Assembly: GCA_017459485.1 (NCBI GenBank)
Contig: JAFUCW010000036.1
Span: 1-19,219, forward strand
DNA length: 19,219 nt
Source of the DNA: Eggerthellaceae bacterium
GTDB lineage: Bacteria; Actinomycetota; Coriobacteriia; Coriobacteriales; Eggerthellaceae
Direction of reading: 5' to 3'
Under the pieces are notes generated by a model. The model was not told the origin of the DNA and ran no database searches. It saw only the letters and a list, made by a program, of their open reading frames with translations. Positions 347 through 19,219 of this stretch are shown here, one piece after another. The translations under genes were made by a program, and so were the position numbers. Positions within the stretch are counted from its first letter, which is position 1, and each line of letters opens with the position of its first letter.

Positions 347-411
347 GCCCCTCCCCGCAACGGCAAGTCCGCACGCAAACCAGGGAAGAGCCCCCAATTG
401 TACGACTACGA

Positions 412-442: not shown

Positions 443-454
443 ACAAGGTTTGGC

Positions 455-1273: not shown

Positions 1274-1321
1274 CGGTCTTGCATCTGGTGCGGAGGTATG
1301 CGCTTGTAGGGGTGTCCAGTG

Positions 1322-2047
1322 CTAGCGGTTGCGGGTGCCGCGGACGATGCCGAAGGCAATGCCCGCAATGAGCGCTGCCGCTACAGCAAAAACGATGAAA
1401 AGCACCCAGGGCATGGAGACGCTGCTCTCTTCGGTAACATCCGCACCGCCAACGGCAGATGGGGCGGAGCTTGCCGCACCCGAACCACCAGATGCGCTAC
1501 TGCCCGATTCCGTCCCCGTCGCCGCACTGGTCCCCGAAGAACCTGCAGCCGACGAAGAGGAAGCGCCCGACGAAAGCGCACTTGGGTCGAAGTCCTGCAC
1601 GCTTGCCAAGTCGACGGTAAGAGTGTAGTCCACTTCGTGCGGCTCGGACATAGCAGTAGTGTCGCCGACCACGTCATACGGTTCGTCGAAGGCGACCACC
1701 GGAATCAAGAACACCGAATTGCCGCTGGGGTTCACAGGCAGGTACTGCTTGCCAGCCACCACCATGTAGTCGTAGTTTGAGCTTGACCATTCGACTGCCA
1801 CCGCGGCCTTGCCGTTGAGCACGGAGAGTTTCGCTGGAGACATGACGCTTGCACGACCCGAACCGCCCCCAAGCTCCACATCCACGACGTATTCGCCGTC
1901 GTCCATGTCCACGGCGACCGCGTCGTCGTAGGGACTGCTCGAAACCGGCTCGCCTTTGGCCCATGCCATCCCTGGCACGGAAAGCATCAAGCACATCAAA
2001 AGCGCCAATGCGCCAAGCTTCGTCTTGTTCTGCACTCCTTGCAGCAT
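1322..2047 (-). CDS. Membrane-anchored surface protein with one NEAT-like domain
   Basis: This 241-aa protein starts at ATG 2047, after AAGGGAGAAG; an open frame continues upstream but has no comparable start signal. A signal peptide ends near residue 30 (AWA). Residues about 47-148 form one beta-rich domain starting DDGEYVVDVEL, with NYDYMVVAGKQYLPVN, NSVFLIPVVAF and a closing HEVDYTLTVD strand. This layout resembles NEAT (iron-transport-associated) domains and relatives beside metal-complex transporters. The Tyr-rich strand is the usual ligand contact in NEAT proteins. A Ser/Gly/Ala linker (150-205) leads to a C-terminal helix (212-234) with a basic tail. It is the last gene of the riboswitch-headed unit, 243 bases after the ExbD-like gene, so it may be the membrane-proximal acceptor of a relay. 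The ligand is unproven; the operon points to a corrinoid, the fold to heme or another tetrapyrrole. Confidence 0.8.
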   Translation of the reverse strand: MLQGVQNKTKLGALALLMCLMLSVPGMAWAKGEPVSSSPYDDAVAVDMDDGEYVVDVELGGGSGRASVMSPAKLSVLNGKAAVAVEWSSSNYDYMVVAGKQYLPVNPSGNSVFLIPVVAFDEPYDVVGDTTAMSEPHEVDYTLTVDLASVQDFDPSALSSGASSSSAAGSSGTSAATGTESGSSASGGSGAASSAPSAVGGADVTEESSVSMPWVLFIVFAVAAALIAGIAFGIVRGTRNR

Positions 2048-2202
2048 CGTCTTCTCCCTTCGGCGGACACACAAACGTGACCTCGTTCGCGAATCGCTCC
2101 TGCTTCTCTCGTACGTGACTAATACTAGACCTAACAGCGGATTTGTGCCAGCATTGCAACTCTTCCCCTGCTCGCTCAAGTGGAGGCAAAACAGAGGGTG
2201 AC

Positions 2203-2267
2203 TTTGTGTTCCAAGCTCCCGATTGCAAGCAGTGCCCGAAACGCAAGAGCAGTGCGTGGAACACAAA
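2203..2267. repeat. 11-bp perfect inverted repeat in the gap before the 241-aa gene
   Basis: TTTGTGTTCCA (2203-2213) and TGGAACACAAA (2257-2267) are exact reverse complements separated by 43 bases. The spacer holds two GCAGTGC-like direct repeats. The element lies in the 243-base gap between the ExbD-like gene (ends 2291) and the 241-aa gene (starts 2047). It could be a structured RNA that sets differential expression of the last gene, or a protein-binding site. No U-run follows on the minus strand, so it is not a typical terminator. Nothing else is recognised in this gap. Confidence 0.6.
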
Positions 2268-2290
2268 ACCCGTCCCTGCGTTACGCGTAT

Positions 2291-2611
2291 TTAGCGCTCG
2301 CCATCCACGAAATAGTATCGTTCGGTTGCCGGATCGTAGTATACAACCCCTTGCCGTTCGTATCCGCTGTCTATTTCACCGTCGTCGTCGGCGTCCAGGT
2401 TCACCTCGATACCGACGATATCCTCGTTTTCGTCTACGGGCTGCATGGGCTGGGTCAAATCCAGCCCATAGTGCGAAATAAGCGCAACAAGAATGCCAAG
2501 CATCAGCACCAGCATGCAGTCGGCAATGTTGACGACGTTTGCGCTGGGGTTGACGTCTTCTTCAGTTGCCTGCGAACGCGCAAGCGCACGCCCATGGCGC
2601 CGTCTGATCAT
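2291..2611 (-). CDS. ExbD/TolR-like small membrane protein (DUF2149-like), motor partner
   Basis: This 106-aa protein starts at an ATG overlapping the stop of the upstream ExbB-like gene (ATGA), which implies translational coupling. It has a basic N-terminus (MIRRRHGR), an NPSANVVNIADCMLVLMLG entry and a single membrane helix at about residues 30-47. Asp31 sits at the helix start, where ExbD/TolR/MotB proteins carry the proton-carrying Asp. The NPxxNVxNxxD pattern and small size recall DUF2149 proteins paired with MotA/ExbB channels in archaea and anaerobic bacteria. The extracellular tail (50-106) is short and acidic (NLDADDDGEIDSG) and ends in a Tyr-rich YYDPATERYYFVDGER stretch. It is shorter than ExbD (about 140 aa) and seems to lack the full periplasmic domain. 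The acidic loop could bind a cation or contact a partner (inference). Confidence 0.78.
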   Translation of the reverse strand: MIRRRHGRALARSQATEEDVNPSANVVNIADCMLVLMLGILVALISHYGLDLTQPMQPVDENEDIVGIEVNLDADDDGEIDSGYERQGVVYYDPATERYYFVDGER

Positions 2612-3399
2612 GCGTTCCCTCCTTGGTTCGCGGCTGGGGCCTGCCCACCTGCAGCGGAAGGCGCATTGTGCGACGCGGCGGAAACCTCCGAAGCAAGTGC
2701 CTGCTGGGCAGCAGATGCGGGGGCAGCAGAAGCACCCGCACCGTTCGCAGCCTTTGGCGTAGCGCCGTCGGCATGCATCTGCGCGACAGCACCGTTGTTA
2801 GCTGCCTCCAAAACGCATTCTGCGGCCGATTCGAATGCGGCGCTGTACTTCGCATACCAGGCCTTACGCAAGGTCGAAACAGCCAATGCCACAACTGCCA
2901 CAACCAGCCCGAGCACCGTAGTGTCGAAGGCCACCATAAGACTTTCTGCCAGTATTTCTGTATCCCCTTCTCCTATGCCCACGATACCAGGGCCCAGGGG
3001 GATCAACGTGCCCATCAGGCCCAGCATAGGAGCAATCTTGGCGATAAGGTCAGTCGCCTTCACGCGATTATCGTAGATAGTCTGCTCTTGCGCCACGATG
3101 TTAACCGCCATGGACTCTCGCTCAACAGGCGTGGCGGATGGATGTTTGAGCAGCTCCACCAATGCATTCTTTTGCCGGCGCAGCATGCCGCTTTCCATTA
3201 CGACCTTCTCCACGTCGGAGTCCGCCCGCACGTCGTCGACCAGCTGAGGGACGTTCAGCTTGAAATAGCGGCGTTCGGTGAAGAACTCGGCGATGAGCAT
3301 GCCCACTACAAAGACCATGACAATTACGAGGGCGATAAGCGCCACGACCACCGGCCCTTGCAACGAGCTCGAGAGGATATGCATAATGTCGATTAGCAT
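2608..3399 (-). CDS. MotA/TolQ/ExbB-family proton channel protein
   Basis: This 263-aa protein starts at ATG 3399 after AAAGGA. Helix 1 is at about 14-38. A cytoplasmic loop follows (40-115), then a helix pair at about 117-143 and 152-178 with the family signature: APMLGLMGTLIPLGPGI, then AFDTTVLGLVVAVVAL. The Thr in GLMGT and the DTT motif match the conserved polar residues lining the ExbB/TolQ/MotA proton path. Residues 200-263 form an Ala/Gly/Gln-rich tail with no fold visible, an unusual extension. ExbB-type proteins form a pentamer around ExbD helices and turn proton flow into motion. It overlaps the ExbD-like gene by four bases and lies 62 bases after a surface-protein gene of the same unit. 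In diderms the partner is TonB or TolA; no such protein is visible here. Confidence 0.88.
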   Translation of the reverse strand: MLIDIMHILSSSLQGPVVVALIALVIVMVFVVGMLIAEFFTERRYFKLNVPQLVDDVRADSDVEKVVMESGMLRRQKNALVELLKHPSATPVERESMAVNIVAQEQTIYDNRVKATDLIAKIAPMLGLMGTLIPLGPGIVGIGEGDTEILAESLMVAFDTTVLGLVVAVVALAVSTLRKAWYAKYSAAFESAAECVLEAANNGAVAQMHADGATPKAANGAGASAAPASAAQQALASEVSAASHNAPSAAGGQAPAANQGGNA

Positions 3400-3461
3400 C
3401 TATGTTTTCCTTTCACATTACGTTCACAGGCATCGGGGCAGCAGACGCACAACACGCTGGA

Positions 3462-4847
3462 CTACCCTAATCCACGTCTAAATCCTACCGCACGCCATAG
3501 GATGCCCAAGGCACAAATGCCCGATGTCACCAGCGACAGTACCTGAAGCGGAGTCAACCCCGCGGCGGCCTCTTCGATTTCGACAAGATCCATGGGGTCG
3601 CCGTCGCCGTCGGGAGTATCGAAGCCAGCCATAGTCATCGCGATTCCCCGCTTGGTCTCCTTGCTGCTCTGGCTGCCCGACTCCTCGTCTGCAGAACTGG
3701 AGCTGTCTGCACCATCCTCCGACGAGCCTTCGTCAGCCTCCACGCTGGACCCTGCTTCTTCAGAGCCCGCTGCGCCCGACTCGCCCCCTGCACTCGAGCT
3801 GCTGGTTTGTCCTTGCACTACTGCAGATGCCATGCCACCGGAATTCGCAGCTGGCGTGCTTTGGTCGTCTCCGGACCCGTCGTCGGCATTGCGCGAAACG
3901 TTGCCGGAAGCCGACGCAGCGGACGAGCCGGAGGAATCCTGACCGTCGCCTGCGCCCGGTTCGCCTGAACCGCCTTCGGAAGAGTCGGATTCGCCCGATT
4001 GCCCCGAACCATCCGCGTCTTCGCCAGGCGCAGTTTCGTTCCAGAGGGCGTTGACCATAAGGTCGCTGCCAACCTGTTCGAAGGAGACATCCCAACCAGC
4101 GAACTCGAACCCTTCCCGCACGGGAGACTCCGGAGCAGCAGCCGCAGAGCCTGCTGCAACCGACTGCGTCGAAAGCACGTTGCCTATGCCGTCGGTAAAC
4201 GTGACTGTGTACTGTGCAGGCGCCTTGGCGGCCTCTATGGCAGCAAGGGTGTCTGCCGTGGGAATGAACACCACCTGACGCGTGTACCACTGGGACCGAT
4301 CCGCGTTACCGCCGGAAAACGTCGCCATCGTCACGGGCGAATTCAGGGCGGGTATGGAAATGCTGAACCGGTGCGGCACGTATCCAGACGCGGGGTCCCC
4401 TGCCAGGTAGCTCGGCGAAGTCTGCGTGCCGTCGCCAGGGGCAAGAGCGGCCGCCTCTTCTGCGGTGCCGGGATAGTAGAGGTACGTGTAGGCCTTCGAC
4501 ATGAAGAATTCGACGTAGATGGTATTGCCTTGGCGCATGATGAGCGCACGTTCCTTGTTGGTCTGGTTGTCGCAGTCCACAGCGTTTTCGTACATGACGC
4601 ACATGCGCGACGTAGTGCGCGCCACAACACGCAGGATCTGCCCTTCGGGAATGTCCGCCGGGTAGATGACGTCGCCAATAGAGTAGCCTCCGCCTTCAAG
4701 CTCCTGCGTCGCAGGGTAGGAATCTGCGGGCTCGTTGAAAAGCGCGAGCGCAGGAGCGGGGAACGCAACGAGCAATGCAGCGAACGCGCATGCAGCAAGG
4801 ACCGCAGCGAAGCGGATTCGCACCTTCTGCAGAGAACCGAACGCCAT
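3462..4847 (-). CDS. Membrane-anchored surface protein: NEAT-like domain plus one InlB-type repeat
   Basis: This protein has 461 aa from ATG 4847; an ATG six codons upstream (4865) overlaps the previous stop and is possible, but 4847 has GGGGAG upstream. A signal peptide ends near residue 36 (ALA). Residues about 48-198 form a NEAT-like domain. It contains RMCVMYENAVDCDN with two Cys and two Met, then YLYYPGTAEEAAAL, then QWYTRQVVFIP as closing strand. One Listeria-Bacteroides (InlB B-type) repeat follows (212-270: VTFTDGIGN then GFEFAGWD). A long Ser/Gly/Asp/Glu linker (272-398) resembles a wall-spanning stalk. A C-terminal helix at about 431-452 anchors it in the membrane. No LPxTG motif is seen. 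It follows the 1322-aa gene without a gap and precedes the ExbB gene, so it is probably co-transcribed and part of the same receptor set. Confidence 0.85.
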   Translation of the reverse strand: MAFGSLQKVRIRFAAVLAACAFAALLVAFPAPALALFNEPADSYPATQELEGGGYSIGDVIYPADIPEGQILRVVARTTSRMCVMYENAVDCDNQTNKERALIMRQGNTIYVEFFMSKAYTYLYYPGTAEEAAALAPGDGTQTSPSYLAGDPASGYVPHRFSISIPALNSPVTMATFSGGNADRSQWYTRQVVFIPTADTLAAIEAAKAPAQYTVTFTDGIGNVLSTQSVAAGSAAAAPESPVREGFEFAGWDVSFEQVGSDLMVNALWNETAPGEDADGSGQSGESDSSEGGSGEPGAGDGQDSSGSSAASASGNVSRNADDGSGDDQSTPAANSGGMASAVVQGQTSSSSAGGESGAAGSEEAGSSVEADEGSSEDGADSSSSADEESGSQSSKETKRGIAMTMAGFDTPDGDGDPMDLVEIEEAAAGLTPLQVLSLVTSGICALGILWRAVGFRRGLG

Positions 4848-4852
4848 GGCCC

Positions 4853-7800
4853 TTATGCTCCCCATACGCCCTGGAGGCTTGTGGCTCTGGCAGCATTGCG
4901 ACGTTCGCGCTGCGCAAAACGACAGGCGAACGCCAAAGCGCCCAACGACGTCGCAAGCAGGGCAATGCCCACAACGGCGGGCAACAGGCTTGCCTGCGGC
5001 GCAGGGGCAATCTCCGATTCGTACACAAGCGCATCTAGGGCGGCTACGTCGTCGGAATCCGAAGCGTTGCGGTTGCGAGAGCTCGAACTGCCTGCTGTGC
5101 CGGCAGCAGCCGCATCCTTCTTGCTGCTCGATGCTGCGGCGGAAGTGGCCTTGCTGCTCTCTTTAGCACTTGAACTGGAGCTGGCAGCCGAAGAGGAGCT
5201 TGACCCGCTCCGGGAACTTAAGGATTGCGTGCCGCTGGCAGAAGAAGCGGCTGCCTGCGACTGCACGGAGCCACCCGCCAACCCCAGCGAAGGAGTCGTG
5301 TTGCCGCCGCCTGCGACCTGCCCTGCAGACCCGGAACCCGAACCGCCGCCAGACCCGCCGGAGTTGTCCGCTCCGCCCGAAGCGTCTGCTGCGCCTTCAG
5401 AGCTGCCGCCTTCGGCCTTGCCTCCCTTGCCCTGAGACTCATTCGAGTCGTTGCCTTTTGCGTCCTTGCCGTTGCCCGACCCATCCTTGGAGTCGTCGGT
5501 TTGCTCTTCTTTGGGAGCGTCGGGCTGCGCGTTCGCCTCGTCGATGGTGACGATCATTTCGTAGGTAATCGCATCGGTTTCCGACGTAGCTTCCTTGCCC
5601 TTTACAGAGAAGTAGAAGGTCGTGTTCAGGTCTACAGGGATCTGGTAGTACGAATGGTCGTTGGGGAACGTGCCGTCGCCGGTGTTGCGGTTCTTGTACT
5701 CCTTGCCGTCCATGTGCAGCGTGTCGGACGCGTTGGAGTCGTGCTCGATTATGGCCATAGCGCGGCCGTCCTTCACCACCACTTGGTAGATGAGGAACTT
5801 CTTGTTGCGCGGGGAGCGGCTCTTGCCCATGTTGGAATCGGAGGCAACCTTGCTCGCACCAGAATAGGTGCCGTCTGCGAGCGTAGTGGCATCGTCTAAG
5901 CCTGCCAGCGCGTTGATCGCCCATACGTTGTTTTCCAAGTAGCGCCCGTAGGTGCGGCTGGACCGGATAAGGCTGTCGGGGTTGGTTTCCTTGTTGTCCG
6001 GTTGCGGCGGGTCGTAGTCGCCGTCAAGCACGTTTTGAAGGTTTTGGGGCAGGGAATCGTAGGCGGCTTTCGCCATGGCAATGGATCCGTCTGCGTCTCC
6101 AGTGACCGCATAAGGGTCGCTTTCCAGCGCGGCGATAAGCACCTTCACCAGCCACATGCGCTCGTCGGCGGTCAACTGGCTTTGCAGGTCGGCGGGCAGC
6201 GCGTTGTATGCCTTGCCTGCCGCCTGGATGTCGACGCTGGTCTTTGTGACAGTGCGCGGGTCTTTGGGCAGCTTGTTGATGAGCGCACGCGCGTTAGCAA
6301 CCAGCGCGTTTTCGTCCGGTGCGACTTCCACCTTCTTCCATTGCGCCTCTACCGTGGCGTCCGCCTTCACGTTCGCGTACGTCCCGTTCCAGCCCTCGAA
6401 CGAATATCCTTCACGCGTCGGGTCGTCCGGCGGCGTGGCAGACCCGCCGTATTCGACAGTTTCGTCTTTCAGCGTGTTGCCCTGCCCGTCGGAAAACGTT
6501 ACGGTGTAGGTGGCAATCGCCCACACTGCGTTGATCGTCGTATCCGAAGCAATCGGCCCAAGGGCAGCGTCCCATTCCTTGAACGTGTAGCCTTCGCGGT
6601 CAACCGAAGGCTCGGTGGCGCTGGACCCGTATTCGACGGTCTGGGTCGACACCACCGTTCCCTGCCCGTCGGTGAAGGTGACCTTGTAGGTTTTGGGTTT
6701 CCACACTGCATTGATGGTGGTGTCTGCCACAATCCCGTCGAAGGGAGCGTCCCATTCCTTGAACGTGTAGCCTTCGCGTTCGGGAACTGCGGGCGGCGCT
6801 GCCGCGCTTCCGTACTCCACGCTCTGGGTGCCTAGTTCGCCACCTTGGCCGTCGGTGAAGGTGACCTTGTAGCTGTTTATGGCCCACGTCGCGTTGACCA
6901 CAACGTCGCCCTTGATGCTGGAGAATTCTCGGTCCCAACCGGCAAACGTGTAGCCTTCGCGCACAGGATCGGCCGGCGCCGTTGCCGCCTGCTCGTACGC
7001 CACGCTCTGGGACTTGATCTCTTTGCCCTGGCCGTCGGTGAAGGAAACCGTGTAGGTCTTGGGCTCCCATTGCGCGTTGACCGTCAGGTCTTCCGTCACC
7101 TTGGCAAAGCCCTTGTCCCAACCGACGAACGTGTAGCCCATGCGCGTCGGGTTGTCGGGCGCAGGCGCTGCGGCGCCTTCCTTCACGCGAGGTGACGCAT
7201 ACGTGTAGCCGTTGCCGTCGGTGAAGCTGACCGTGTAGTACGTCACGCCGGGCTCCAGCCACACGGCAAGGACTATCGTATTGCGCGTGATGTTGTCGAA
7301 CGAAACGGGGTCCCAACCGCCGAACACCCATCCTTCGCGCGTGGGGTCTTCGGGCGCCGTTGCTCCTTTACCGTGTTCGACCTCTTCTTCTTTCAGCAGC
7401 TTGCCATAGTCGCTCTCTTGAGTGCCGTCGTTGTAGTAGAACGACACTTTGTACTTCTTCAAGGACCATTTCGCGTTGACTGTCAGGTTACCCGTGATTT
7501 TGGAGAAATCCTTGTCCCAGCCGCCGAATACGTACCCTTCGCGCTTGGGGTCCGCAGGGGCCTTTGCCGCTGCACCGTATTCCACGGTTTGAGTCGTCTT
7601 GCCGCCAATGCCGTCGTCGAATGTTACCGTGTACGTGCGCTTTTTGGACGTGAACTTCGCCGTGTACGTCGCGTCCGCCGTGGCAGCCTTCACTGTGGGA
7701 TCCCACCCGCTAAACGTGTAGGTGTATTCTGCCGTTTGGGCTTTGGTGGGAGTGCCGCCAGGATACGCTGGCAAAGTGTTGTAGTCGGCCTGACTGGTGG

Positions 7801-8821: not shown

Positions 8822-8840
8822 GTGTCCTTCACGCTACTGC

Positions 8841-8878
8841 GGCTGGAGCCCAGGGCATTCGCGCCCCAGGCTCCAGCC
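8841..8878 (-). other. Strong intergenic hairpin between two co-directional surface-protein genes
   Basis: GGCTGGAGCC (8841-8850) pairs exactly with GGCTCCAGCC (8869-8878). Inside, after a small internal loop, there are four more pairs. It lies in the 113-base gap between the 1251-aa gene (ends 8935) and the start of the 1322-aa gene. There is no U-run on the minus strand, so it is more likely a processing or 3'-stabilising hairpin, or a partial terminator that lowers downstream expression, than a full terminator. Confidence 0.6.
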
Positions 8879-8934
8879 GTTTGTTCTGCCTTCCTCTTAT
8901 GGCTCTTGCCTAAGAGGAACAACGTCCAACGCCG

Positions 8935-11900: not shown

Positions 11901-12690
11901 GGTTTTCAAACGAAGTCTCAGTCCCGTTGTACATATAGGTTGAGGAGATGGTCTCCATGTACTTCTCGCCCCAGCGCGGATCGTTGTCCTTGTTGTCGAA
12001 CGACAGACCCGCTTCTTTCTGGGTACCGCTAAAAGTATGGGTAGGGGTGGCACTGTTAAGGTAGATGGTCAAATAGTCCTGCGCATCTCCTGGATAGTCT
12101 TCCAGGGTAGCCTTTACAACCCTCCACATGAGTTCTTCCGTTGTAACATAAAGGTTGTAGATAATGGGAGACTTGTCCTCGAGCTTGTCCTTGGCAGGGA
12201 TGCCCAGATAGGTCTGGTACGAAGTGGTACCGCCACCACGATCGTCCGTCTTCAGGATAGCCACGGGAACCATCTTGCCACAGTAGCTTTCATCAAGCAC
12301 AAACTCGGGGTAGCCTTCCGAGTTGACGGGATACCAGTTGTCCTGGTTCGCCACGTCGGCGGGCTTGGTCCCCTCGTTATCCTCGCGGCTGGCATTCAAA
12401 AGAAAACCGCCGTAGACCGTCTTGTTGCTGGTAACAAGCTTGGTCCTGACCTTGCCACTTTCATAATAGTAGTAGGAGCCCGCTTCGGTACCCTGGTCGG
12501 ACCACATATTAAATTCTTCAGCCTTGTCAGCCTTGAAGAACTTAACGGTATCGCCGTCGTAGTCGGTAGTCTCTGGGACCGCACCATATGCCAGCGGTGC
12601 GGCGGACATCAGTCCGAGCGCGAACACCACTGCCAGCAACAGCGACAGCGCGGTGCGCCTCCCCTTTCCTGTTGATGCTATTACGTTCAT
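8935..12690 (-). CDS. Giant secreted surface protein with BspA-type leucine-rich repeats, B12-riboswitch controlled
   Basis: This protein has 1251 aa from ATG 12690 (AAAGGAGAA upstream). The signal peptide ends near residue 36 (AYG). In order: an N-terminal module (about 43-168; DYDGDT, TVYGGFLLNAS, RGGGTTSYQTYLGIP) homologous to that of the 1322-aa protein; a beta region (about 200-320); two NEAT-like domains (about 325-455, ending TWVDRTMGLEF, and 468-620, starting DGLYKLPS and ending GWYRATDDLW). A PEGA/carboxypeptidase-regulatory-like beta module follows (628-700). BspA-type LRR_5 repeats (about 735-1000) show GLEEIGNFAF, VETIGRNAF and LETIGKNAF. Two tandem Ig-like modules end the chain (1044-1148 and 1149-1250). 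No C-terminal membrane helix or LPxTG is seen, so attachment must be non-covalent or through a partner. It is the first gene after the second cobalamin riboswitch, so it is expected to be made when B12 is scarce. Confidence 0.9.
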   Translation of the reverse strand: MNVIASTGKGRRTALSLLLAVVFALGLMSAAPLAYGAVPETTDYDGDTVKFFKADKAEEFNMWSDQGTEAGSYYYYESGKVRTKLVTSNKTVYGGFLLNASREDNEGTKPADVANQDNWYPVNSEGYPEFVLDESYCGKMVPVAILKTDDRGGGTTSYQTYLGIPAKDKLEDKSPIIYNLYVTTEELMWRVVKATLEDYPGDAQDYLTIYLNSATPTHTFSGTQKEAGLSFDNKDNDPRWGEKYMETISSTYMYNGTETSFENQSKAAYKVPVTIPENQTEFVLPLVSYSSDFAARRAEINLQDSTATFGNYIGSATVQASSEVVDVTVGSTGNISYKGYVRPYAGAESFEGTSNEWQSTLSLTITGGVYDKIYAVSDPAVEGAEEAAAAIAGDGAVELPVTNVYRPKTVAYDGAKVAVKMHVAEDAPYEEAGTWVDRTMGLEFSNVDAATVVFSGEALTPKTNPPVVLEDGLYKLPSMKSSNAKDGQMFNHMEADSRLLKVEGDTATIIFTQDGSTASVGKYSRVALVKSHDFIPSGSNYVSDDMLPAGTQVIDGVEQDKVADNARWRYDIELPKATVEEMLTNGTVLDVTVWNNTGSSADKIPGWYRATDDLWVELGTLGEATTTQPVTFVPQDAAGAAIAGATVTVTDSAGAEVAATDGKYVLTIGDTYTVAATADGYLPFTESYVAVAGETQEALALESSQWDVSCFTYSGATVTGLTDHGKNVLKANPAMVIPNEGPDGTPITAIGNGTSGKGTFGFTEDGEGEAFDRTYVPTSVMLPAGLEEIGNFAFSAALGTGDQPRPVKGLSEVTLPDTLKKIGNTAFQNAPLSSIVLPDSVEELGTGAFTGNEMYEHPDLEQLVISKNLKNIPQAAFLSRVVDTIVIPEGVETIGRNAFGGSLVKTLSLPNTLTLIDNQAFMNHYLASVEIPASVKTINQTAFRQTVGGYIMEANSIKTLVLNEGLETIGKNAFQDACALDTLAIPSTLTTLDSTAFAGNKNANRDDNKVVLTTEIEDQANAAGAYTKVVADGTGHIIQMPLEDLTITNNETPVWIQGNSDPEQNTFSAVVAGLGSGETISAAQWWYSKDGENWTKSGVAAVIDGDTVSMTVPEATAARKPGNMQWKVEVTTSMERTAEGAPLAYTAPEDLTLTNGEAPVWVKGEKDIPMTVKVSTLKEGETISKAVWYYSSNGTTWKKSGVAAAIDGDTVSITVPEATDARAPGKMSWMVKVTTSQGRTGDSEPQGFAAE
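8941..9561 (-). repeat. Two tandem C-terminal Ig-like modules (1251-aa protein)
   Basis: Residues about 1044-1148 and 1149-1250 are clear tandem copies. Each has a PVWxxG opening, GETISxAxWxYS, a W-x-K-S-G-V-A-A strand, IDGDTVSxTVPEAT, and a closing W-x-V-x-V-T-T-S strand. The same module type ends the other giant secreted protein (13483-14094). It is absent from the three membrane-anchored proteins. Confidence 0.85.
9691..10488 (-). repeat. BspA-type leucine-rich repeats (LRR_5)
   Basis: Within the 1251-aa protein, residues about 735-1000 hold roughly eight 23-residue units of the form LPxxLxxIGxxAFxxxxLxxIxIP. BspA-type LRRs in surface proteins usually mediate binding to host or other macromolecules. 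Here they are inserted between a PEGA-like module and the Ig-like tail. Confidence 0.85.
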
Positions 12691-12808
12691 ACACGTTCTC
12701 CTTTCGTCTTTCGTGTACTCTTCGCTTCTCCTTCTTTGCTTTGCTTAAGGACAGGCGGCGTGGCGGCGGCATGCCGCAAGCCACAGGCATCCGTGCCCTG
12801 TGTGCAAC

Positions 12809-12835
12809 AAAAAACGCACCCATCTAAAGGTGCGT
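12809..12835 (-). terminator. Second (gene-proximal) terminator of the riboswitch 2 leader
   Basis: Arms ACGCACC (12814-12820) and GGTGCGT (12829-12835) form a 7-bp stem with an 8-base loop. On the minus strand they are followed by a U-run (plus-strand A's at 12809-12814). It lies between the aptamer and the start codon at 12690, fitting an intrinsic terminator of the expression platform. Confidence 0.8.
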
Positions 12836-12846
12836 GTGCTGAACCC

Positions 12847-12886
12847 GGTAAACAAAAAGCGTGCCTGAGCACGCCTTGTATTTACC
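12847..12886 (-). terminator. First (aptamer-proximal) terminator of the riboswitch 2 leader
   Basis: GCGTGC (12859-12864) pairs with GCACGC (12869-12874) around a 4-base loop, followed on the minus strand by five U's (12854-12858). Flanking GGTAAA (12847-12852) and TTTACC (12881-12886) are also complementary. The whole could form one long extended hairpin. It sits about 20 bases after the aptamer's terminal hairpin. Confidence 0.8.
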
Positions 12887-12905
12887 AACAGACGCAACCT
12901 CCGGG

Positions 12906-13044
12906 GTTCACAGAAGTTCTGTACGTGGCGGACAGGACAAGCACTCCGGCTCTCACGGCAATGTCCCTTGCTCAGGATTCGCACCTGATTCCCTTGTCGG
13001 ACCCCCTTTTCGGCGGCCACCTTCTGCCCGTTGGCTATTTAGTT
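12906..13044 (-). ncRNA. Cobalamin riboswitch 2 (short, class-II-like aptamer)
   Basis: The minus strand carries the cobalamin aptamer core. It has GACAAGGGAA, then a GGUGCGAAUCC arm, a GCAAGGGACAUUGCCGU element, and a B12-box-like AGCCGGAGUGCUUGUCC. A GACAAG/CUUGUC closing pair and a conserved ACAGAACTTCTGT hairpin at the 3' end are also visible. The large peripheral P8-P12 arms of long adenosylcobalamin riboswitches are missing, which resembles the compact cobalamin class. It is closely similar to the copy at 18.2 kb. Two terminators follow, so ligand binding is expected to stop transcription into the 1251-aa gene and the rest of the unit. Confidence 0.85.
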
Positions 13045-13101
13045 GTCATGATGCTTTTATCCAGTCGCTTCACTGTCGAAACGACTGTCAAAGCACGTTG
13101 C

Positions 13102-13131
13102 ATGCTACTCTCCTCGATATTGCTTTGTCAA
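13102..13131 (-). promoter_or_regulatory. Promoter of the riboswitch 2 operon
   Basis: On the minus strand, TTGACA (13126-13131) lies 18 bp before TAGCAT (13102-13107). The same promoter, with the same spacing, is found at the first riboswitch. Transcription should start near 13095, giving a leader of about 400 bases. About 35 bp upstream of the -35 are also nearly identical in both copies. Confidence 0.75.
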
Positions 13132-13411
13132 AGAGATATGAACGCAGTGTGGAGATGTGTGCGTCCGCATAAAAACCCAGCTGATATAGGGTGTTTGCAG
13201 CCTCTTTTCGTACATTCAATCCAGCAGACGCACATACGACCTGCTAGCTCAAGATCCCGCTGCGCTTCCTCCCCTACGGTTTGAATATTTCCACGCCGAA
13301 AGGAGCGTTATTTGAACCATAACCCTGCTTTTTCGCGCGACACGCTTTGGGCAGATTGCGCTTTTGCCTCTAGCGCACTTGGCAGTTTCACCTAGTAGGT
13401 TCCCCATTGCG
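13132..13411. other. Intergenic stretch between riboswitch 2 promoter and upstream terminator
   Basis: Only the first 30 or so bases, upstream of the promoter, are conserved with the other leader. The rest is without a convincing gene, RNA or repeat on either strand. Confidence 0.5.
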
Positions 13412-13445
13412 AAAAGTCTGGCCCCCGGATTACTCCGAGGGCCAG
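13412..13445 (-). terminator. Terminator after the giant secreted protein gene
   Basis: CTGGCCC (13418-13424) pairs with GGGCCAG (13439-13445). After one mismatch, CGGA/TCCG continues the stem around a 4-base loop. On the minus strand it is followed by CTTTTC. It lies about 30 bases after the TAA at 13477, so the upstream gene is probably a single-gene transcript. Confidence 0.85.
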
Positions 13446-13476
13446 GGGCAAGCGATGTATCGGGGAAAGAAATCGC

Positions 13477-16400
13477 TTACTCGACCAGCGAAATGCCTTC
13501 GCTGGTTACGGTGCGGCCGGTGCTGGTAGTTACGCGCACGCTCCAGGCCATCGGGGCTTTGCGCGCTTCTGTGCACGAAGGAATCTTCACGGTTAGCTCG
13601 TTGCCTTCGAAGAAGTTCTCTGCGCCGGTCTTCTTATAGTTAGTCTTGTTCTTTGAGTAGTACCATACGGCGCTTTGCACGGTTTCGCCTTCGGCAAGGC
13701 CGTTCACCTTGGCGACGATGTCAACCGGCTGGCCTTCCACCCACTTGAAATCGCCCGCGGGCACCACTTCCAGCTTCTCCAGCTCCGTCAGAGACTGGCC
13801 GGCGCTAGTGGCGGTGCGCCCGTCGGATGTAGTGACCATAACGCGCCACTTCATGGGATCCTTGCGCGCCACGGTGCATTCGGGAATGTAGACGGAAGAA
13901 TCCGCGTCTCCAACGAACACCTTGGCACCGGTCTTCTTCCAGCTATCCGGGTCGTCCGGGGTTTTGGTGTACTGCCACTGCCAGCTGGTCACCACTTCGT
14001 TCGTAGCGGGGTTCAGTCCTTCGGCCACCACACTAATCTCGGCAGGCTTGCCCGCCACCCACAACGGGGTGCCCACATGAGTCAGCACCAGATCGTCGGG
14101 GGCGACCGTCTTGGTCAGCTCGTCGCCGGAAAGGGTAATTTGCGCGGCAACCGGGTTCACGGTAAGCGTGCGCTCCACCCATGTTCCTGCTTGGTCGAAG
14201 TCGGCGCCGTCCACCACATGGAAGGCAACGGTCGCCTGCCAGGTTTCCACGTCGATCTGCGGGGCATTGCCCAGCGAATTGGCCAGCGGGATAACGAATA
14301 TGCCGTCCTGCGCGCCGATCACCTTCTGCGCCGCAGCCGCTTCTTCGGCCGTGCCGATGATCGCGGCGTCGTAGTTGCCATCCGTCACCGTGAAGGTGGG
14401 CTGGCACGTGTACTTGTTTGCCGAAGGGGTGCCGATGGTGTTGATCTTGCCATCAGGTGCGACCGCCATGGTCTCCAGTACGCTGACAACCGACGCCGGC
14501 AGTTCGTCGCGGTAGTTGCCTGTGCGCACATGGGCGGCGTCCAAGTCCACCACGGCCTGGCGTGCGGTGAGGGCGCTGTCCCAGTTACCTGCGTTGGCGC
14601 GGCTGTTGGACACCGCCGTTATAGGCAGGCGGAACGTGCCAGTGCCGGCTTCGATGGCGGCCAGGGCGTCTGCGTCGGTAATGGGCATGCGGAACTGGTA
14701 CTTGTCTGCCGTTCCGTCGTTTTGCACGCCGCTGCTGGTTTCGTAGACGCACTCCACTGTGGCAGGAGCGTAGTAGATCATGTTGCCTGCCGTTTCTTTG
14801 GCAGCAAACGTGGCCTTCACGGCGTCGAGGTCCGCAAGCGCGTCGTCGACCGTGCCCGCATAGACATATTCGTAGCCCTTGGCGGAAAGCGCGAACACGA
14901 AGTCGGCGCCGTTTTCGGTCTTTTCGATGAAGGCGTTCACTACCTTGAACATGGCTTCTTCGTCGTAGATGGAAAGGGCGATCGTGTCGGGCTCTTCTGC
15001 ATCCAGCGGGGTAACCGTGTTCGCGCGGAAGATGACCCCATGGTCGTACCAGCCCTGCTGCATGTTATAGCGGGACGTGTTGCTGGAATGGAATGCGTAC
15101 TGCAGCTGTTCGTTGAACTTGGCGACAGGATAGGTAACCGTACTTTGCTTGGCAGCCGTGTCCATGGCGATCTCTATGGCGCCTTCGGGTGCCGTGTCGC
15201 CGTCGGGTGCGGCAGCCGCAGCTTCCTCCTTCGTTCCCACGTACACCAAGCCGTAGCTGGTGTTCTTCAGCACGGCATCCAGGCTCATCTGGCCGTTTTC
15301 AACCACCAGAACGCCCATGCCAAAGTCCTTTTCGGTGCCCTTGAGCACGTCTTCGTAATAGTAGTACGGCGTGCCGTTGGCCTTGTCGAAAGTAACTTCG
15401 TAGCGCCCATCCTTGGGGACAAGCCCCTTGATGGCGTCTTCGATGGCAGCCGCCCAGGCATCCACAGTGGCCTGGTCGGTTTCGTCGCGGTTCACTGCAG
15501 CCATAGCGGCGTTCACTACCGCAGCGGTTTCGTCGGTGAAGTAGCCCAGGTTGCCCATTTCCTGGCCAGGCACCTTCGCGATGGCAGCATCTACTGCCGT
15601 CCAGTCGACGTCGGTTTCAACGGACAGCTTCACGAAGTTCACGATTATGTTGCCCAGGAATTCCTTTTCGTCGGTCACCGTGAAGGTTTGGCTGAACTGG
15701 GTCTCGCCGTCGGTTTCGCTGATGTAGGCGTGGTCGGGAACACTCCATTCGCGGGTGGTGACCAACGCATAGCCTTCAGGCGCGTCCACGGTCACGGTAT
15801 AGGTTTCGCCCACCTGCAAGTTGTCAAGAACGTAGTACGTTCCTTCGGGCACGGGGACGGTAGTCTCTTGACCCGTCGAGTGGACCTTCAGCTTGACCAC
15901 TTCGCCCGTTCCGTGGATGGAATAGTTCTGCTCCTGGATGCGCTCTTGACCGCGGATCTGCATCCAGTAGTAGTAGTTCTTGTGATACAGGCCGATCTCC
16001 TTGGTTGCCTGGTCCGCCACGACTTCGTAGTTTTCGGTAGCCGTGCGGTAGTCGGCTGCTTCGGCGGTTACCTTGTACGTGGCGCCCACCACCAGTTCGT
16101 AGACGCCTTCTACGGCGGCGACTTCAGTGCCTTCGGGGTCGACCACAGTAAACGTGGCACCGTCGATAGGTTCGCTGGTCTTGTTGTCTTTGGCAGTGAA
16201 GGTCACGCTTTGCACAGGCGCCTTCTTCAGGCTGAAGCTGCAGTCCTTCTGCGGGTCGAATCCCAGCGACCACACGCCCAGGCTGTCGTCAAGGTAGCCG
16301 AACTTGCTGCCGTAGGCCACTACGCGGTTGTCGATGGGAATGGTGTAGACCCCTGACGTATCCGGCGTGGCTTCGGCATACGTGGATTCGTCTTCGCCCG

Positions 16401-17517
16401 ACGGGCCGAATTTCACCGTAAGGGTCACGCCTTCGAGCGTTTCGTTGGTGGCGTAGTCGTACACCTTGAACGTGAAGCGCTGGGCATCCAGGTACTTGTT
16501 CATCAGGACGCTTTCGGTACCTGCGACGGTGTGGGTCATGGATCCGGTCTTGTCTTCGTAGCCCGCCGCAGCAATGGTGTAGCCGTAGCGGATACCGTTG
16601 TAGAGCTTGTAGCTGCCGTCCGCCTCTGCCGTCACTTCGGACTTGTCGTCCCAGCGATACACCGTAATCTGGGGGTTGGCAACCGCTTCGTCTAGCTGGT
16701 CCTTCACGTCGAAGTCGACGGCCACCTTGCTCTCTTCCGCCTTAATAAGCGTAAGGGTGAGCGTTTCGCCGTCCTTCTTGGGCGCGTAGTCTTCCTGCGT
16801 AAGCAGCGTCTCTTCGGAGCCCGGCACCACGTAGCCTTCGGCCGACGCGGTAACCGTATAGGTGTCGGGCACGGTCATGGTGTAGGTGCCGTCGATGGGT
16901 TCGAGCGCCGTACCGTCCGACTTCGTGACGGTAATCTGCGCGCCTTCGATAGCTTCTTTGGAAACCGCGTCCTTCACTTCTATGGTCACGTGGCGGTCTT
17001 CAGGCAGCGGCGACACGGTAATAGTGAAGGTCTGCTCTGCCAGAGGGTCGGCGCCGTAGTAGACCTCGTCGGCGTCGTACTGGTTGTAGGACGTGCCCTG
17101 CGGGTAGAGCTTCAACGTTGCTGTGAAGGTCATGCCCTGGTCGCGGTAGGTCGCCTTCGGGCTGAACGTGACTGTGCCGTTAGACCCTTCGGGGTAGCGA
17201 ATCTTCTTCAGGTTGCTGCTGGAGAAGTACGTGGTGCTAAGAATGCTCTTGTCCACAAACCAGCCGGAGCGGAACTTGCCCGACTCCGCCATCTTGAAGA
17301 CGACGCTGCTGATCTTGGCGCCCGCCGTGCTGTAGTAGGGAATGGTGACGTTGGCGTTCTTGCCAGTAACGCTGGCGGCCGTGGCAGCGGTGACCACCTT
17401 GCCGTCCAGGAAGAACTGGTTCAGGTAGCGCTGTGCTTCCTGCTGGGCGGCTATGGGCAGGTCGGTGCTGTCGCTTGTCTTGGTCAGGTCCGCTTCGTTT
17501 ATCTGGAAGTCGTGCAC
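13477..17517 (-). CDS. Giant secreted NEAT-like/PEGA-like surface protein, main part after an in-frame TAG
   Basis: This open frame (1346 codons from a GTG at 17517) is in frame with the signal-peptide ORF at 18030-17548 and separated only by a TAG. The GTG has no ribosome binding site, so it is probably the body of a 1517-codon gene, not an independent gene. Visible order: the end of the first NEAT-like domain; a beta region (60-165); four tandem PEGA/carboxypeptidase-regulatory-like modules (about 175-515); another beta region (520-635); a FIVAR-like helical stretch (637-700). Then three or four NEAT-like domains follow (703-1125), with YVGTKEEAAAAA, YAGTVDDALADL, GTAEEAAAAQ and TWVERTLTV. 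Two tandem Ig-like modules end it (1142-1245, 1248-1345). There is no C-terminal helix or LPxTG. The upstream riboswitch predicts repression by cobalamin. Whether it is translated depends on the TAG. Confidence 0.75.
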   Translation of the reverse strand: MHDFQINEADLTKTSDSTDLPIAAQQEAQRYLNQFFLDGKVVTAATAASVTGKNANVTIPYYSTAGAKISSVVFKMAESGKFRSGWFVDKSILSTTYFSSSNLKKIRYPEGSNGTVTFSPKATYRDQGMTFTATLKLYPQGTSYNQYDADEVYYGADPLAEQTFTITVSPLPEDRHVTIEVKDAVSKEAIEGAQITVTKSDGTALEPIDGTYTMTVPDTYTVTASAEGYVVPGSEETLLTQEDYAPKKDGETLTLTLIKAEESKVAVDFDVKDQLDEAVANPQITVYRWDDKSEVTAEADGSYKLYNGIRYGYTIAAAGYEDKTGSMTHTVAGTESVLMNKYLDAQRFTFKVYDYATNETLEGVTLTVKFGPSGEDESTYAEATPDTSGVYTIPIDNRVVAYGSKFGYLDDSLGVWSLGFDPQKDCSFSLKKAPVQSVTFTAKDNKTSEPIDGATFTVVDPEGTEVAAVEGVYELVVGATYKVTAEAADYRTATENYEVVADQATKEIGLYHKNYYYWMQIRGQERIQEQNYSIHGTGEVVKLKVHSTGQETTVPVPEGTYYVLDNLQVGETYTVTVDAPEGYALVTTREWSVPDHAYISETDGETQFSQTFTVTDEKEFLGNIIVNFVKLSVETDVDWTAVDAAIAKVPGQEMGNLGYFTDETAAVVNAAMAAVNRDETDQATVDAWAAAIEDAIKGLVPKDGRYEVTFDKANGTPYYYYEDVLKGTEKDFGMGVLVVENGQMSLDAVLKNTSYGLVYVGTKEEAAAAAPDGDTAPEGAIEIAMDTAAKQSTVTYPVAKFNEQLQYAFHSSNTSRYNMQQGWYDHGVIFRANTVTPLDAEEPDTIALSIYDEEAMFKVVNAFIEKTENGADFVFALSAKGYEYVYAGTVDDALADLDAVKATFAAKETAGNMIYYAPATVECVYETSSGVQNDGTADKYQFRMPITDADALAAIEAGTGTFRLPITAVSNSRANAGNWDSALTARQAVVDLDAAHVRTGNYRDELPASVVSVLETMAVAPDGKINTIGTPSANKYTCQPTFTVTDGNYDAAIIGTAEEAAAAQKVIGAQDGIFVIPLANSLGNAPQIDVETWQATVAFHVVDGADFDQAGTWVERTLTVNPVAAQITLSGDELTKTVAPDDLVLTHVGTPLWVAGKPAEISVVAEGLNPATNEVVTSWQWQYTKTPDDPDSWKKTGAKVFVGDADSSVYIPECTVARKDPMKWRVMVTTSDGRTATSAGQSLTELEKLEVVPAGDFKWVEGQPVDIVAKVNGLAEGETVQSAVWYYSKNKTNYKKTGAENFFEGNELTVKIPSCTEARKAPMAWSVRVTTSTGRTVTSEGISLVE
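13483..14094 (-). repeat. Two tandem C-terminal Ig-like modules (giant secreted protein)
   Basis: Two copies of about 100 residues share a W-V-x-G-x-P opening, a central W-x-Y-(S/T)-K strand, KKTGA, an IP-x-C-T-x-A-R-K motif, and a closing W-x-V-x-V-T-T-S. They are homologous to the tail of the 1251-aa protein, with IPxC here where that protein has VPEAT. Confidence 0.85.
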
Positions 17518-17547
17518 GTAGTAGTACTTGTCGGGCGTGGTGTCCTG

Positions 17548-18030
17548 CTAGCTGAAGTGGCTTGCGGAGCGCGCCGCGTACACCTTGGGCTGCCCTAGCT
17601 CGATAGGCACGGGCCAAAAGGTGTAGGCGGAACTGCCTTCCATCTGCAAGCCGCCCAGCAAGTTGCCGAACTCGCCGCCGACTTCCTTTTGCTCTTCGGC
17701 GATTGCTTCTGCGACGATAGTGTCCTTGGTGGCCGTGTCGGACACGTAGAAGCGATCTGCCCCGGTGCCCTTCATGGTAACGACGGCCGTCGCCTTGCCG
17801 TCCTTCACCACCACGGTGGCCTTCGTCACCATGATCATGCCGCTGGCGTCGGTGGTGACGTCGGTGGCAATGTTGGTAGCTTCGTAGGTGCCGTCGGCAA
17901 GCGTCGTATCCGCCCATGCCTGCTGGCTTGTCGCAGGCAACAGCCCTGCCACGCCCAACGCGAGCACGGCAAACAGCACTGCCGAAAGCGCCTTAAGCGA
18001 CCCTTTCCTCTTCGATGCCAATACGTTCAT
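17548..18030 (-). CDS. N-terminal fragment of the giant secreted protein (signal peptide, part of a NEAT-like domain), ends at TAG
   Basis: This 160-aa ORF starts at ATG 18030 after AAAGGAGAAGG. The signal peptide (MNVLASKRKG start, ending AWA near residue 40) resembles that of the 1251-aa protein (MNVIASTGKG). A NEAT-like domain begins at LADGTYE (about 44) with VVVKDGKATAVVTM and VPIELGQPKVYAA, then stops at TAG (17548-17550) before the final strand. The missing strand continues in the same frame after the stop (DTTPDKYYYVHDFQIN). The matching domain in the 1322-aa protein has no break there. The short product would be a secreted partial domain, so this is probably a disrupted gene, a readthrough gene or a sequence error. 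Confidence 0.75.
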   Translation of the reverse strand: MNVLASKRKGSLKALSAVLFAVLALGVAGLLPATSQQAWADTTLADGTYEATNIATDVTTDASGMIMVTKATVVVKDGKATAVVTMKGTGADRFYVSDTATKDTIVAEAIAEEQKEVGGEFGNLLGGLQMEGSSAYTFWPVPIELGQPKVYAARSASHFS

Positions 18031-18088
18031 GCACCCTTCTCCTTTCGTTTCCGCTTGATGCTTCGGTTCCTTTCGAAGAAAACGCAAT

Positions 18089-18113
18089 AAAAAAAGCGCT
18101 CCGTTGGGAGCGC
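18089..18113 (-). terminator. Terminator in the riboswitch 1 leader
   Basis: GCGCTCC (18096-18102) and GGAGCGC (18107-18113) form a 7-bp GC-rich stem with a GTTG loop. On the minus strand it is followed by seven U's (18089-18095). It is placed between the cobalamin aptamer and the start at 18030, as expected for a transcription-attenuating expression platform. Confidence 0.9.
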
Positions 18114-18134
18114 GCACAGCAAGGCATGGTAAGC

Positions 18135-18152
18135 GCTTCGTGTACTCGAAGC
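18135..18152 (-). other. Small hairpin between aptamer and terminator of riboswitch 1
   Basis: GCTTCG (18135-18140) pairs with CGAAGC (18147-18152) around a 6-base loop. The adjoining AAGCGCTT overlaps in sequence with the terminator arm, so it may take part in an alternative antiterminator fold. That role is inferred. Confidence 0.45.
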
Positions 18153-18187
18153 TCCAGCCTGGTTTGGTTTTCGCACAACCCCCCGGG

Positions 18188-18325
18188 GTTCACAGAAGTT
18201 CTGTGCGTAGCGGACAGGACAAGCAGTCCGGCTCTTACGGCAATGTCCCTTGCCCAGGATTCGCACCTGATTCCCTTGTCGGACCCCTTGTCGGTGGCCA
18301 CCTTCTGCCCGTTGGCTATTTAGTT
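18188..18325 (-). ncRNA. Cobalamin riboswitch 1 (short, class-II-like aptamer)
   Basis: On the minus strand the order is: ATAGCCAACGGGCAGAAGG, GGGGUCCGACAAGGGAA, GGUGCGAAUCC, GCAAGGGACAUUGCCGU, AGCCGGACUGCUUGUCC, and a CACAGAACTTCTGTG hairpin (18191-18205). This matches the cobalamin riboswitch core (GGGAA, GGUG-AAUCC, B12 box) without the long peripheral arms. It is followed by a 7-bp terminator with U7 and then the giant secreted-protein gene, giving a leader of about 345 bases. In cobalamin riboswitches binding usually turns the gene off. Confidence 0.87.
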
Positions 18326-18380
18326 CTCATGATGCTTGTTGGCAGCCGTCTTGCAGAAAAACTGCCTCAAAGCACGTTGC

Positions 18381-18410
18381 ATGCTAATCACCTCGACATT
18401 GCCTTGTCAA
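18381..18410 (-). promoter_or_regulatory. Promoter of the riboswitch 1 transcript
   Basis: The minus strand has TTGACA (18405-18410), an 18-bp spacer and TAGCAT (18381-18386), the same arrangement as at 13102-13131. The expected start is near 18374. The bases upstream (to about 18442) are nearly the same in both copies, which may mark an additional regulator site. Between about 18443 and 18608 no further gene or clear signal is seen. Confidence 0.75.
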
Positions 18411-18608
18411 AGAGATATGAACGCAGTGTGAAGATGTGTGCACCCACTGAAAACCCCAGCTAACATGCAGCGTATACAGCCCGCTTCTCTACCCTTTCAG
18501 CCCCTGGTGCTTTCAGTTTCAAACGGGTTAAAAACCTCTACGCCAAGTGAGGTTGATCCCAGCTTCTGCCTGCCTCAGGCGAGGCGAAAAGCGCACCTTT
18601 GCACTAGG

Positions 18609-18935
18609 TCACTTCTTCTTGCCGAACTTGGCGATCAGTCCCACGCCCACGAACAGGACGACCGCCAACACGACCGGCCAGACGCGGAACTCGGGGCCAC
18701 TCGAGCCAGCGGATTCGCCGGCTGCCCCCGATGTGGTCGCTGCCGCATCCTGCACGCCTTCTGCAGCGTTGCTCGCCCAGGCGACGTCAGACAGTAGCAG
18801 CCCGGCCGCAAAAAATGCCGCAACCACAACACCTGCCGCGATGGCAACCACAGCGGCAACGGACCCTGCCGGGCGGCGCATAATCAGGGACGCGCGCAGA
18901 CCGTGCCCGCACAGTTGGTGTCCACTCGAATCCAT
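18609..18935 (-). CDS. Small two-helix membrane protein of unknown function
   Basis: This protein has 108 aa from ATG 18935, chosen because GGAGG lies 5 bases upstream; an in-frame ATG nine codons earlier lacks such a site. An N-terminal hydrophobic helix (about 24-48) ends in DVAWA, like a signal peptide or first membrane helix. A short Ala/Ser/Gly-rich outer loop follows (50-80). A C-terminal helix (about 84-103) ends in a KFGKKK basic tail. The layout, signal then short linker then anchor, is that of the other anchored proteins here but without any ligand domain. It lies upstream of the riboswitch 1 promoter in the same direction and has no riboswitch of its own. I do not recognise a family. 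Confidence 0.65.
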   Translation of the reverse strand: MDSSGHQLCGHGLRASLIMRRPAGSVAAVVAIAAGVVVAAFFAAGLLLSDVAWASNAAEGVQDAAATTSGAAGESAGSSGPEFRVWPVVLAVVLFVGVGLIAKFGKKK

Positions 18936-19089
18936 TGCGCCTCCGATCGTCGGTGCCCCCACGCCATCTACACCATGGTACTACACTTCGCGCCACACCA
19001 GCCCCGCATGGCAAAAGCGGGCCTTAGTGCATAGAGAGGGACGCCTTTGCTTCTACCGAATAAGACTTTTGCCCCGTAGCGGCGAGTGG

Positions 19090-19114
19090 TTCCGGCGTTC
19101 GTAGAACGCCGGAA
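19090..19114 (-). terminator. Strong hairpin just after the edge gene
   Basis: TTCCGGCGTT (19090-19099) pairs perfectly with AACGCCGGAA (19105-19114), with a further C-G pair closing a 3-base loop. It begins 5 bases after the stop codon at 19119. There is no U-run on the minus strand, so it may end transcription weakly or protect the 3' end. The gap from 18936 to 19089 shows no other clear feature. Confidence 0.65.
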
Positions 19115-19118
19115 CATC

Positions 19119-19219
19119 CTACTTACATTGCGCAGGAACCATGTCCCACTTGGCCTGGTCAGTGTGCAGCTCGTGCTCGGCGCGCTCGCTGAGGGGAGCG
19201 CCGTAGATCTCCTTGTAGA
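19119..19219 (-). CDS. C-terminal end of an unidentified gene (runs off window)
   Basis: The last 32 residues before a TAG are hydrophilic and end in DMVPAQCK. They start in-window with YKEIYGAPLSERAEHELH. The composition looks like the tail of a soluble enzyme, not a surface protein. Codon pattern and direction match the neighbours, and a strong hairpin follows the stop. Too little is present to name a family. Confidence 0.6.
   Translation of the reverse strand, partial: YKEIYGAPLSERAEHELHTDQAKWDMVPAQCK

Follow-up and report, generated by a model that had tools for sequence, protein, structure and literature searches.

In the closest described uptake systems, btuB is under cobalamin-riboswitch control, NEAT modules are heme carriers, and ExbB motors are energizers of the outer membrane. 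Here, we analyzed a 19,219-nucleotide stretch from an Eggerthellaceae bacterium (assembly GCA_017459485.1, contig JAFUCW010000036.1, positions 1 to 19,219; hereafter, the window), which is contig C322 of a 2.43-Mb genome in 504 contigs with 72% completeness, and which carries a cluster combining variant cobalamin-type leaders, giant surface proteins with NEAT-type modules, and an ExbB/DUF2149-like pair. The cluster probably serves to acquire corrinoids at the cell surface, under repression by B12. Its link to corrinoid import is supported, as judged from sequence comparison, by the switches and NEAT families that it has in common with CbiK-BtuF-BtuC and cbi operons, by a gene row in genome G406, and by locus L018 of Desulfotomaculum. 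No description of a cobalamin riboswitch combined with NEAT and ExbB/DUF2149 genes was found in the open-access literature; within the literature searched, the parts are known and the combination seems to be new.

Both leaders were recognized by R1, a model built from 10 aligned leaders outside the window that precede CbiK, NEAT-like or CbiL genes. The matches lie on the minus strand at 12894-13031 (83.3 bits) and 18175-18312 (80.5 bits), with rough E-values of 1.7e-16 and 7.2e-16, respectively, and R1 scored the leaders of genomes G090 and G091 at 78.5 bits. The subtype is characterized by a GGGAA-YCRGGUG-UCC core, a CAAGGGMCAUU element, a B12 box of variant form, and a hairpin that contains GUGAACCC; a kissing hairpin is an idea familiar from such switches. 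A small hairpin before the B12-box-like stretch is missing in the window and G090/G091 leaders, which therefore form a compact variant. Across 13 leaders, including those of the window, 93.9% of the alignment cells were paired (79.9% in shuffled alignments), 13 of 24 pairs were changed on both sides (shuffled, 9.5; 3 of 500 shuffles as high), and the covariation score was 0.511 (shuffled, 0.231; 0 of 500 as high), while the count of further pair types in this alignment was not above the shuffles (167/500). Pairing dropped to 26–52% when the structure was slid along the leader alignment, and because the structure was hand-drawn from one aligned sequence, it is favoured in the comparison with these slid controls. 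Single-sequence folding of three aptamers was unconvincing (z of -1.63, 0.74, and 1.00). Homology to the leaders of B12 genes, together with the conserved and covarying structure, supports the assignment of the leaders as cobalamin-type, a variant of clan CL00101 for which cobamide binding is predicted. Because the Rfam cut-off was tested and not reached, they are filed as a clan-related variant and not as Rfam members, so that the two cobalamin-type riboswitches proposed by an earlier sequence-only reading stand in this variant form.

As that reading had also stated, the whole cluster is read in one direction, from the minus strand, and it falls into two leader-gene blocks. Block 1 runs from a sigma-70-like promoter (TTGACA-18-TAGCAT, 18381-18410, 10 of 12) just upstream of leader 1 (18312-18175, aptamer and downstream hairpin) through an intrinsic terminator (18096-18113, from the terminator-like site scan; folding of the surrounding stretch gave an ordinary z of -0.89) to a frame split into P0008 (17548-18117) and P0001 (13477-17517). 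Block 2 begins with a promoter-like site of the same form (13102-13131, 10 of 12 in the scan), leader 2 (13031-12894), and two intrinsic terminators (12877-12856 and 12835-12814; z -4.83 for the fold of 12920-12800), followed by P0002 (8935-12690), P0003 (4853-8821), P0004 (3462-4865), the ExbB gene (P0005, 2608-3399), the DUF2149-like gene (2291-2611), and P0006 (P0006/P0009, 1322-2047). The P0003/P0004 and ExbB/DUF2149-like genes overlap by a few bases. The two best promoter-like sites of the window lie directly upstream of the leaders, and the first three listed terminator-like sites directly downstream. The totals were not clearly above those of shuffled sequences (4 promoter-like sites versus a mean of 5.2; 22 terminator-like sites versus 17.6, sd 4.3); therefore, it is the placement that carries the evidence for an expression platform at both leaders, with a promoter-like site on the 5' side and a terminator-like site before the gene.

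The genes behind the same switch type connect the cluster to B12. On contig C328 of the window genome, a like leader, one of the ten on which R1 was trained, heads genes for a lipoprotein-type CbiK, a NEAT-like lipoprotein, and BtuF-like and BtuC-like proteins. R1 matches, counted with its 10 training leaders, occurred in 28 of 138 genomes of the family, and five places were found in the window genome: the two in the window and one each on C328, C54 (near the contig end), and C457, where the switch precedes a 1602-residue open frame whose giant product gave weak matches only and no significant NEAT module. ORFs (open reading frames) were read behind 35 of 45 R1 rows, and 134 were picked mechanically, of which 80 were scanned together with the C328 NEAT-like ORF; three near-copies of G066 (G056, G095:C3, and G055), G063, G095:C6, G135:C36, the operons of G090 and G091, and a scatter of 20 other ORFs were outside the scan. 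Among these 81 ORFs, the Pfam matches were CbiK (17), Peripla_BP_2 (16), FecCD (9), NEAT (6), TP_methylase (4), and CbiD (3). NEAT proteins of the P0006 family turn up again in switch-headed ATP-binding cassette (ABC) and cbi operons, with E-values down to 4.5e-36 in a small database. B12 genes thus have the switch as well as the module in common with the window. With the general Rfam model RF00174, 30 of 35 ExbB-bearing relatives had a match at E<=0.1 and 20 a match above the cut-off; of the 63 matches listed, 29, mainly short ones, were followed into their downstream genes, some of which are without a clear B12 link.

Other B12-related loci were observed along the way. In the window genome, the CbiK at L013 (3575-4603, minus strand) has, by reading, a lipoprotein-type N-terminus, appears to be extracytoplasmic, and lies behind a B12 switch. 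A cobalamin riboswitch over the threshold (L011 on C375, 10431-10639, minus strand, 53.1 bits) heads a gene for a 910-residue Ser-rich surface-type protein and also precedes a toroid-type lipoprotein that resembles intrinsic factor (Prenyltrans, E 7.5e-4, sub-cut-off). At L012 (C413), a sub-threshold cobalamin-like element (1949-2087, minus strand, 27.5 bits) stands before a PocR-AraC regulator, adjoined at 2416-6309 by a BCCT transporter, a B12-binding protein, and an MttB-type methyltransferase; B12-binding and MttB-type proteins are also encoded in the window genome, in line with corrinoid acquisition. In the same family, cobalamin-type leaders at L089 (G032:C151) and L067 (G135:C23) precede cell-wall proteins with Cobalamin_bind-like (E 1.4e-4, sub-cut-off) or DUF4430 modules.

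Five related NEAT-like surface proteins had been proposed, and NEAT-type evidence was obtained for P0006, P0004, P0003, and the P0008/P0001 product; in P0002, a NEAT module was sought without a significant match. Of the features of the NEAT domain (PF05031), the fold itself was found. P0006 itself has no PF05031 match, and 23 of the 50 members of its alignment match at E<=0.01; its NEAT domain lies at about 1595-1909. P0003 carries a NEAT-like module at 5495-5950, and its comparison with the P0006 family gave 98.4% in hhalign. The value for the P0004 family against the P0006 family was weak (17.5%), and the common fold of these two, for which the P0004 domain lies at 4230-4697, therefore rests on models. 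The NEAT-like modules of P0001 were placed near residues 660-839, 842-950, and 957-1129, beside CarboxypepD_reg and SpaA domains. In P0008, with a likely ATG start at 18030, a module begins at about 17934 (PF05031, E 0.0056, sub-cut-off). P0002 is a giant secreted-type protein with BspA-type leucine-rich repeats and a sub-cut-off CarboxypepD_reg-like domain, and Flg_new repeats were found in nine stretches of P0003 and once in P0004. The C-terminal anchors of P0003, P0004, and P0006 are hydrophobic segments recognized by reading, and that of P0006 was modelled as a helix.

The heme-iron motif of NEAT domains is YXXXY. Tyr141 of P0006 is invariant in the 50 aligned proteins, and the position at +4 is Val in P0006 and Phe in the consensus. 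On sequence grounds, a single conserved Tyr that is not accompanied by the second of the motif neither proves nor excludes heme in the relatives of P0006.

The proposed ExbB/ExbD-like pair was confirmed for P0005, which matched the ExbB/MotA/TolQ proton-channel family PF01618 over the cut-off (44.4 bits versus 22.9), while its putative ExbD-type partner remained under the cut-off of the DUF2149 family (PF09919, 22.8 bits versus 27.1, E 1.2e-4). A similar ORF is listed at 15 of 21 script-read ExbB loci, a reading in which overlapping ORFs are hidden and one contig ends first. A scan of genome contigs with ExbB yielded one relative only, and homologs at E<=1e-10 were present in 36 of 138 family genomes at 53 places. 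Nine of these, the window type among them, scored >190 bits and 44 scored lower. Where neighbours were inspected, at eight of the 44, they encoded surface-type proteins of other kinds, and five of the eight places had a BtuC/FecCD-like gene. At none of the 44 did RF00174 match (E<=0.1) within 150 kb along the contig, many of the contigs being short and the first-look candidates having been scored in part. Near one such other-type ExbB locus with a BtuC/FecCD-like gene (L155), two molybdenum/tungsten-cofactor riboswitches were seen at 13985-14113 and 15209-15364 (minus strand).

Window-type operons were collected at 11 loci (window, C205, G092, G121, G117, G091, G090, G040, G388, G368, and G406), three of them from other families among 396 genomes drawn from the class; G081, G156, G351, and G409, with a related ExbB and no P0003/P0004-like neighbours, were excluded. 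Because C205, G092, G117, G040, and G406 reach a contig end, the upstream flank could be judged at six loci, and five of these carried a cobalamin-type leader, one of which exceeds the Rfam threshold. The five are the window, G090 and G091 (the same leader, not independent since the two belong to one genus), G121 (RF01482, 40.7 bits, below 50), and G388 (RF01482, 68 bits, over 50). The co-occurrence of pair, surface proteins, and cobalamin switch suggested as a check by the sequence-only reading was thus seen in these operons, but not in G368, where no riboswitch was detectable. In G406, a P0004-like gene of which the contig end leaves only a part is followed in a row by ExbB, DUF2149, NEAT, BtuF-like, and BtuC-like genes. 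In G117, a CbiK-containing protein piece lies ahead of the row. In the Bacillota member Desulfotomaculum sp. (L018), an RF00174 riboswitch of 118.3 bits heads DUF2162, ExbB, DUF2149, and CobN genes. The locus spans 129-6401 in this metagenome-assembled genome, and its CobN protein, judged by reading, begins with a signal-peptide-like segment and is hydrophobic at its end.

Taken together, B12-type control, NEAT modules, the ExbB/DUF2149-like pair, and linkage to corrinoid import bear out part of the corrinoid capture that had been proposed. As the cargo of the NEAT modules we infer corrinoids, over heme, another metal-tetrapyrrole or cobalt, and we likewise infer that the motor acts although the cell presumably lacks an outer membrane. 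In the mechanism that we favour, low intracellular B12 would allow RNA polymerase to pass the terminators of both variant switches, whose anatomy is seen at both leaders. The giant secreted and membrane-anchored proteins, in which NEAT folds and profiles are observed, would bind extracellular corrinoids and relay them between modules. Judging from its family, the ExbB/DUF2149 pair may use the proton gradient to free cargo from the anchored proteins or to pass it on. The cargo would then reach a BtuF-BtuC-BtuD-type transporter, whose operon lies at another place in the genome and is headed by a switch of this type.

Several observations weigh against the acquisition of corrinoids. Scanned against Rfam, the window had nothing that reached the gathering score, nor any match at E<=1, and in the whole-genome search both leaders stayed under the RF00174 cut-off of 31.5 bits, with 16.2 bits at 12921-13039 and 15.7 bits at 18203-18320 (ranks 4 and 5 of 7). 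The sequence-only reading had named the lack of an Rfam cobalamin match as a ground for its own rejection; formally, none exists at the Rfam threshold, and the lineage-specific R1 model overrides this. R1 matches are concentrated in few genera (11 of 48) and are therefore not independent. An in-frame TAG at 17550-17548 (minus strand) interrupts gene 1 within a NEAT-like module, while homologs elsewhere are unbroken. The first giant protein is thus a single reading frame cut in two, of which P0008 and P0001 are the pieces. The TAG may be an assembly error, a strain mutation or a recoding. Among the remaining 137 genomes of the family, P0008 was not matched at E<=1e-6. Against PDB sequences, the P0006 family reached IsdX1 chains without significance, at E-values of 0.11 and 0.23 and ranked below ribosomal S11, and P0060 gave no NEAT match. 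The NEAT entries that were matched carry titles naming them as binders of heme, porphyrin or hemoglobin. The window-type operon of G368 has no detectable riboswitch. CbiD is encoded in the window genome, so the bacterium may produce corrinoids itself; it is then not necessarily a pure scavenger, nor is scavenging necessarily vital. The hmu operon of Bacteroidota, with its ExbB/DUF2149 genes, is reported to handle heme (PMC10434189, PMC12583661).

A rival possibility is that the cargo is heme or another metalloporphyrin, from which a surface CbiK/CobN-type chelatase would strip or swap the metal (iron or cobalt), with B12 control acting through tetrapyrrole or cobalt supply. We consider this unlikely, and still the strongest of the alternatives. 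The titles of the NEAT entries fit it, one of them being IsdA with cobalt-protoporphyrin, and so do the CbiK-containing piece preceding the G117 operon and the hmu operon, in which ExbB and DUF2149 adjoin the CobN/HmuS de-chelatase (PMC10434189, PMC12583661). However, cobalamin-type leaders precede five of six assessable window-type operons, whereas none of the 44 ExbB places with lower scores had an RF00174 match within 150 kb, on contigs that are often short and with the first-look candidates scored in part; the linked ABC and cbi operons suggest corrinoids. A further reading, of low probability, is that the target is cobalt, free or complexed, for a B12-making cell with a surface CbiK as chelatase. 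Cobalamin riboswitches also govern cobalt supply (PMC7689651), CbiK is the most frequent Pfam family behind the switch (17 of 81 ORFs), and CbiD is present in the genome. Yet the matched NEAT entries bind, by title, tetrapyrroles or hemoglobin and not bare metals, and the linked transport genes encode a system of the Peripla_BP_2/FecCD type. It is more doubtful still that the giant proteins serve as adhesins or as matrix components that merely track B12 status, their NEAT-like modules being structural. P0002 and P0003 consist mostly of leucine-rich and Flg_new repeats, kinds known from adhesins, and a Flg_new protein adjoins the C142 ExbB gene of the window genome, where no RF00174 or R1 switch was found; but the ExbB, DUF2149-like, and NEAT genes are kept together in several families, and the NEAT family of P0006 is also found in ABC and cbi operons.

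Two further features were noted. MerR-type regulator genes on the plus strand (455-1273 in the window and 533-1423 in L014) are convergent with a NEAT gene at two ExbB loci of the window genome. The Rfam L31-Coriobacteria leader is present at two loci of the window's family.

Coriobacteriia are not known to have an outer membrane. We tentatively suggest, at somewhat less than even likelihood, that NEAT-type modules were recruited as corrinoid binders in Coriobacteriia-type bacteria, forming a B12-repressed surface relay in which an ExbB/DUF2149 motor, working without an outer membrane, would pull cargo from anchored carriers or drive a surface chelatase. Such a motor-assisted relay would correspond in monoderms to BtuB-TonB uptake and would be paralleled in Bacillota. 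If this is true, NEAT proteins would gain a new cargo, ExbB/DUF2149 would gain a role without an outer membrane in a presumed monoderm, and a means by which gut actinobacteria compete for corrinoids would be revealed.

Compared with known systems, the leaders share with RF00174 and RF01482 (clan CL00101) the GGGAA-GGUG-AAUCC core, ACUGU-like elements, a variant B12 box, and a downstream hairpin, whereas they are about 140 nt long, lack several arms of RF00174 as well as the hairpin that precedes the B12-box-like segment, and score below the cut-off. Surface transcobalamin/intrinsic-factor-like proteins of the same family are likewise cell-wall-type proteins behind cobalamin-type leaders, but two such proteins combine Cobalamin_bind-like with CW_binding_2, or DUF4430 with choline-binding modules, and thus carry toroid or DUF4430 modules instead of NEAT. 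The hmu system of Bacteroidota (HmuYRSTUV) also has an ExbB and DUF2149 pair beside tetrapyrrole genes and, in relatives, chelatases; it differs in having a TonB-dependent receptor and CobN/HmuS and in being iron-responsive (PMC10434189, PMC12583661), in contrast to the NEAT surface proteins and B12-type control of the window cluster, in whose 72% complete genome no CobN was found. Among the scanned window proteins, no Pfam match to a TonB-dependent receptor was found, the genome not having been searched for one. BtuB/BtuG/BtuFCD uptake resembles the cluster in its cobalamin-riboswitch control, and BtuF-BtuC-like genes lie behind the same switch type in the window genome; it differs in that the scanned window proteins had no BtuB- or BtuG-type Pfam match and in that the capture modules here are of the NEAT type. 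The Isd-type heme relays (IsdA, IsdB, IsdC, IsdH, IsdX1, and Hbp2) share with the cluster a NEAT fold in secreted or surface proteins, whereas the window cluster has Val at +4 after Tyr141 of P0006, unlike YXXXY, and joins its NEAT modules to cobalamin-type riboswitch control, giant repeat proteins, and an ExbB/DUF2149-like pair.

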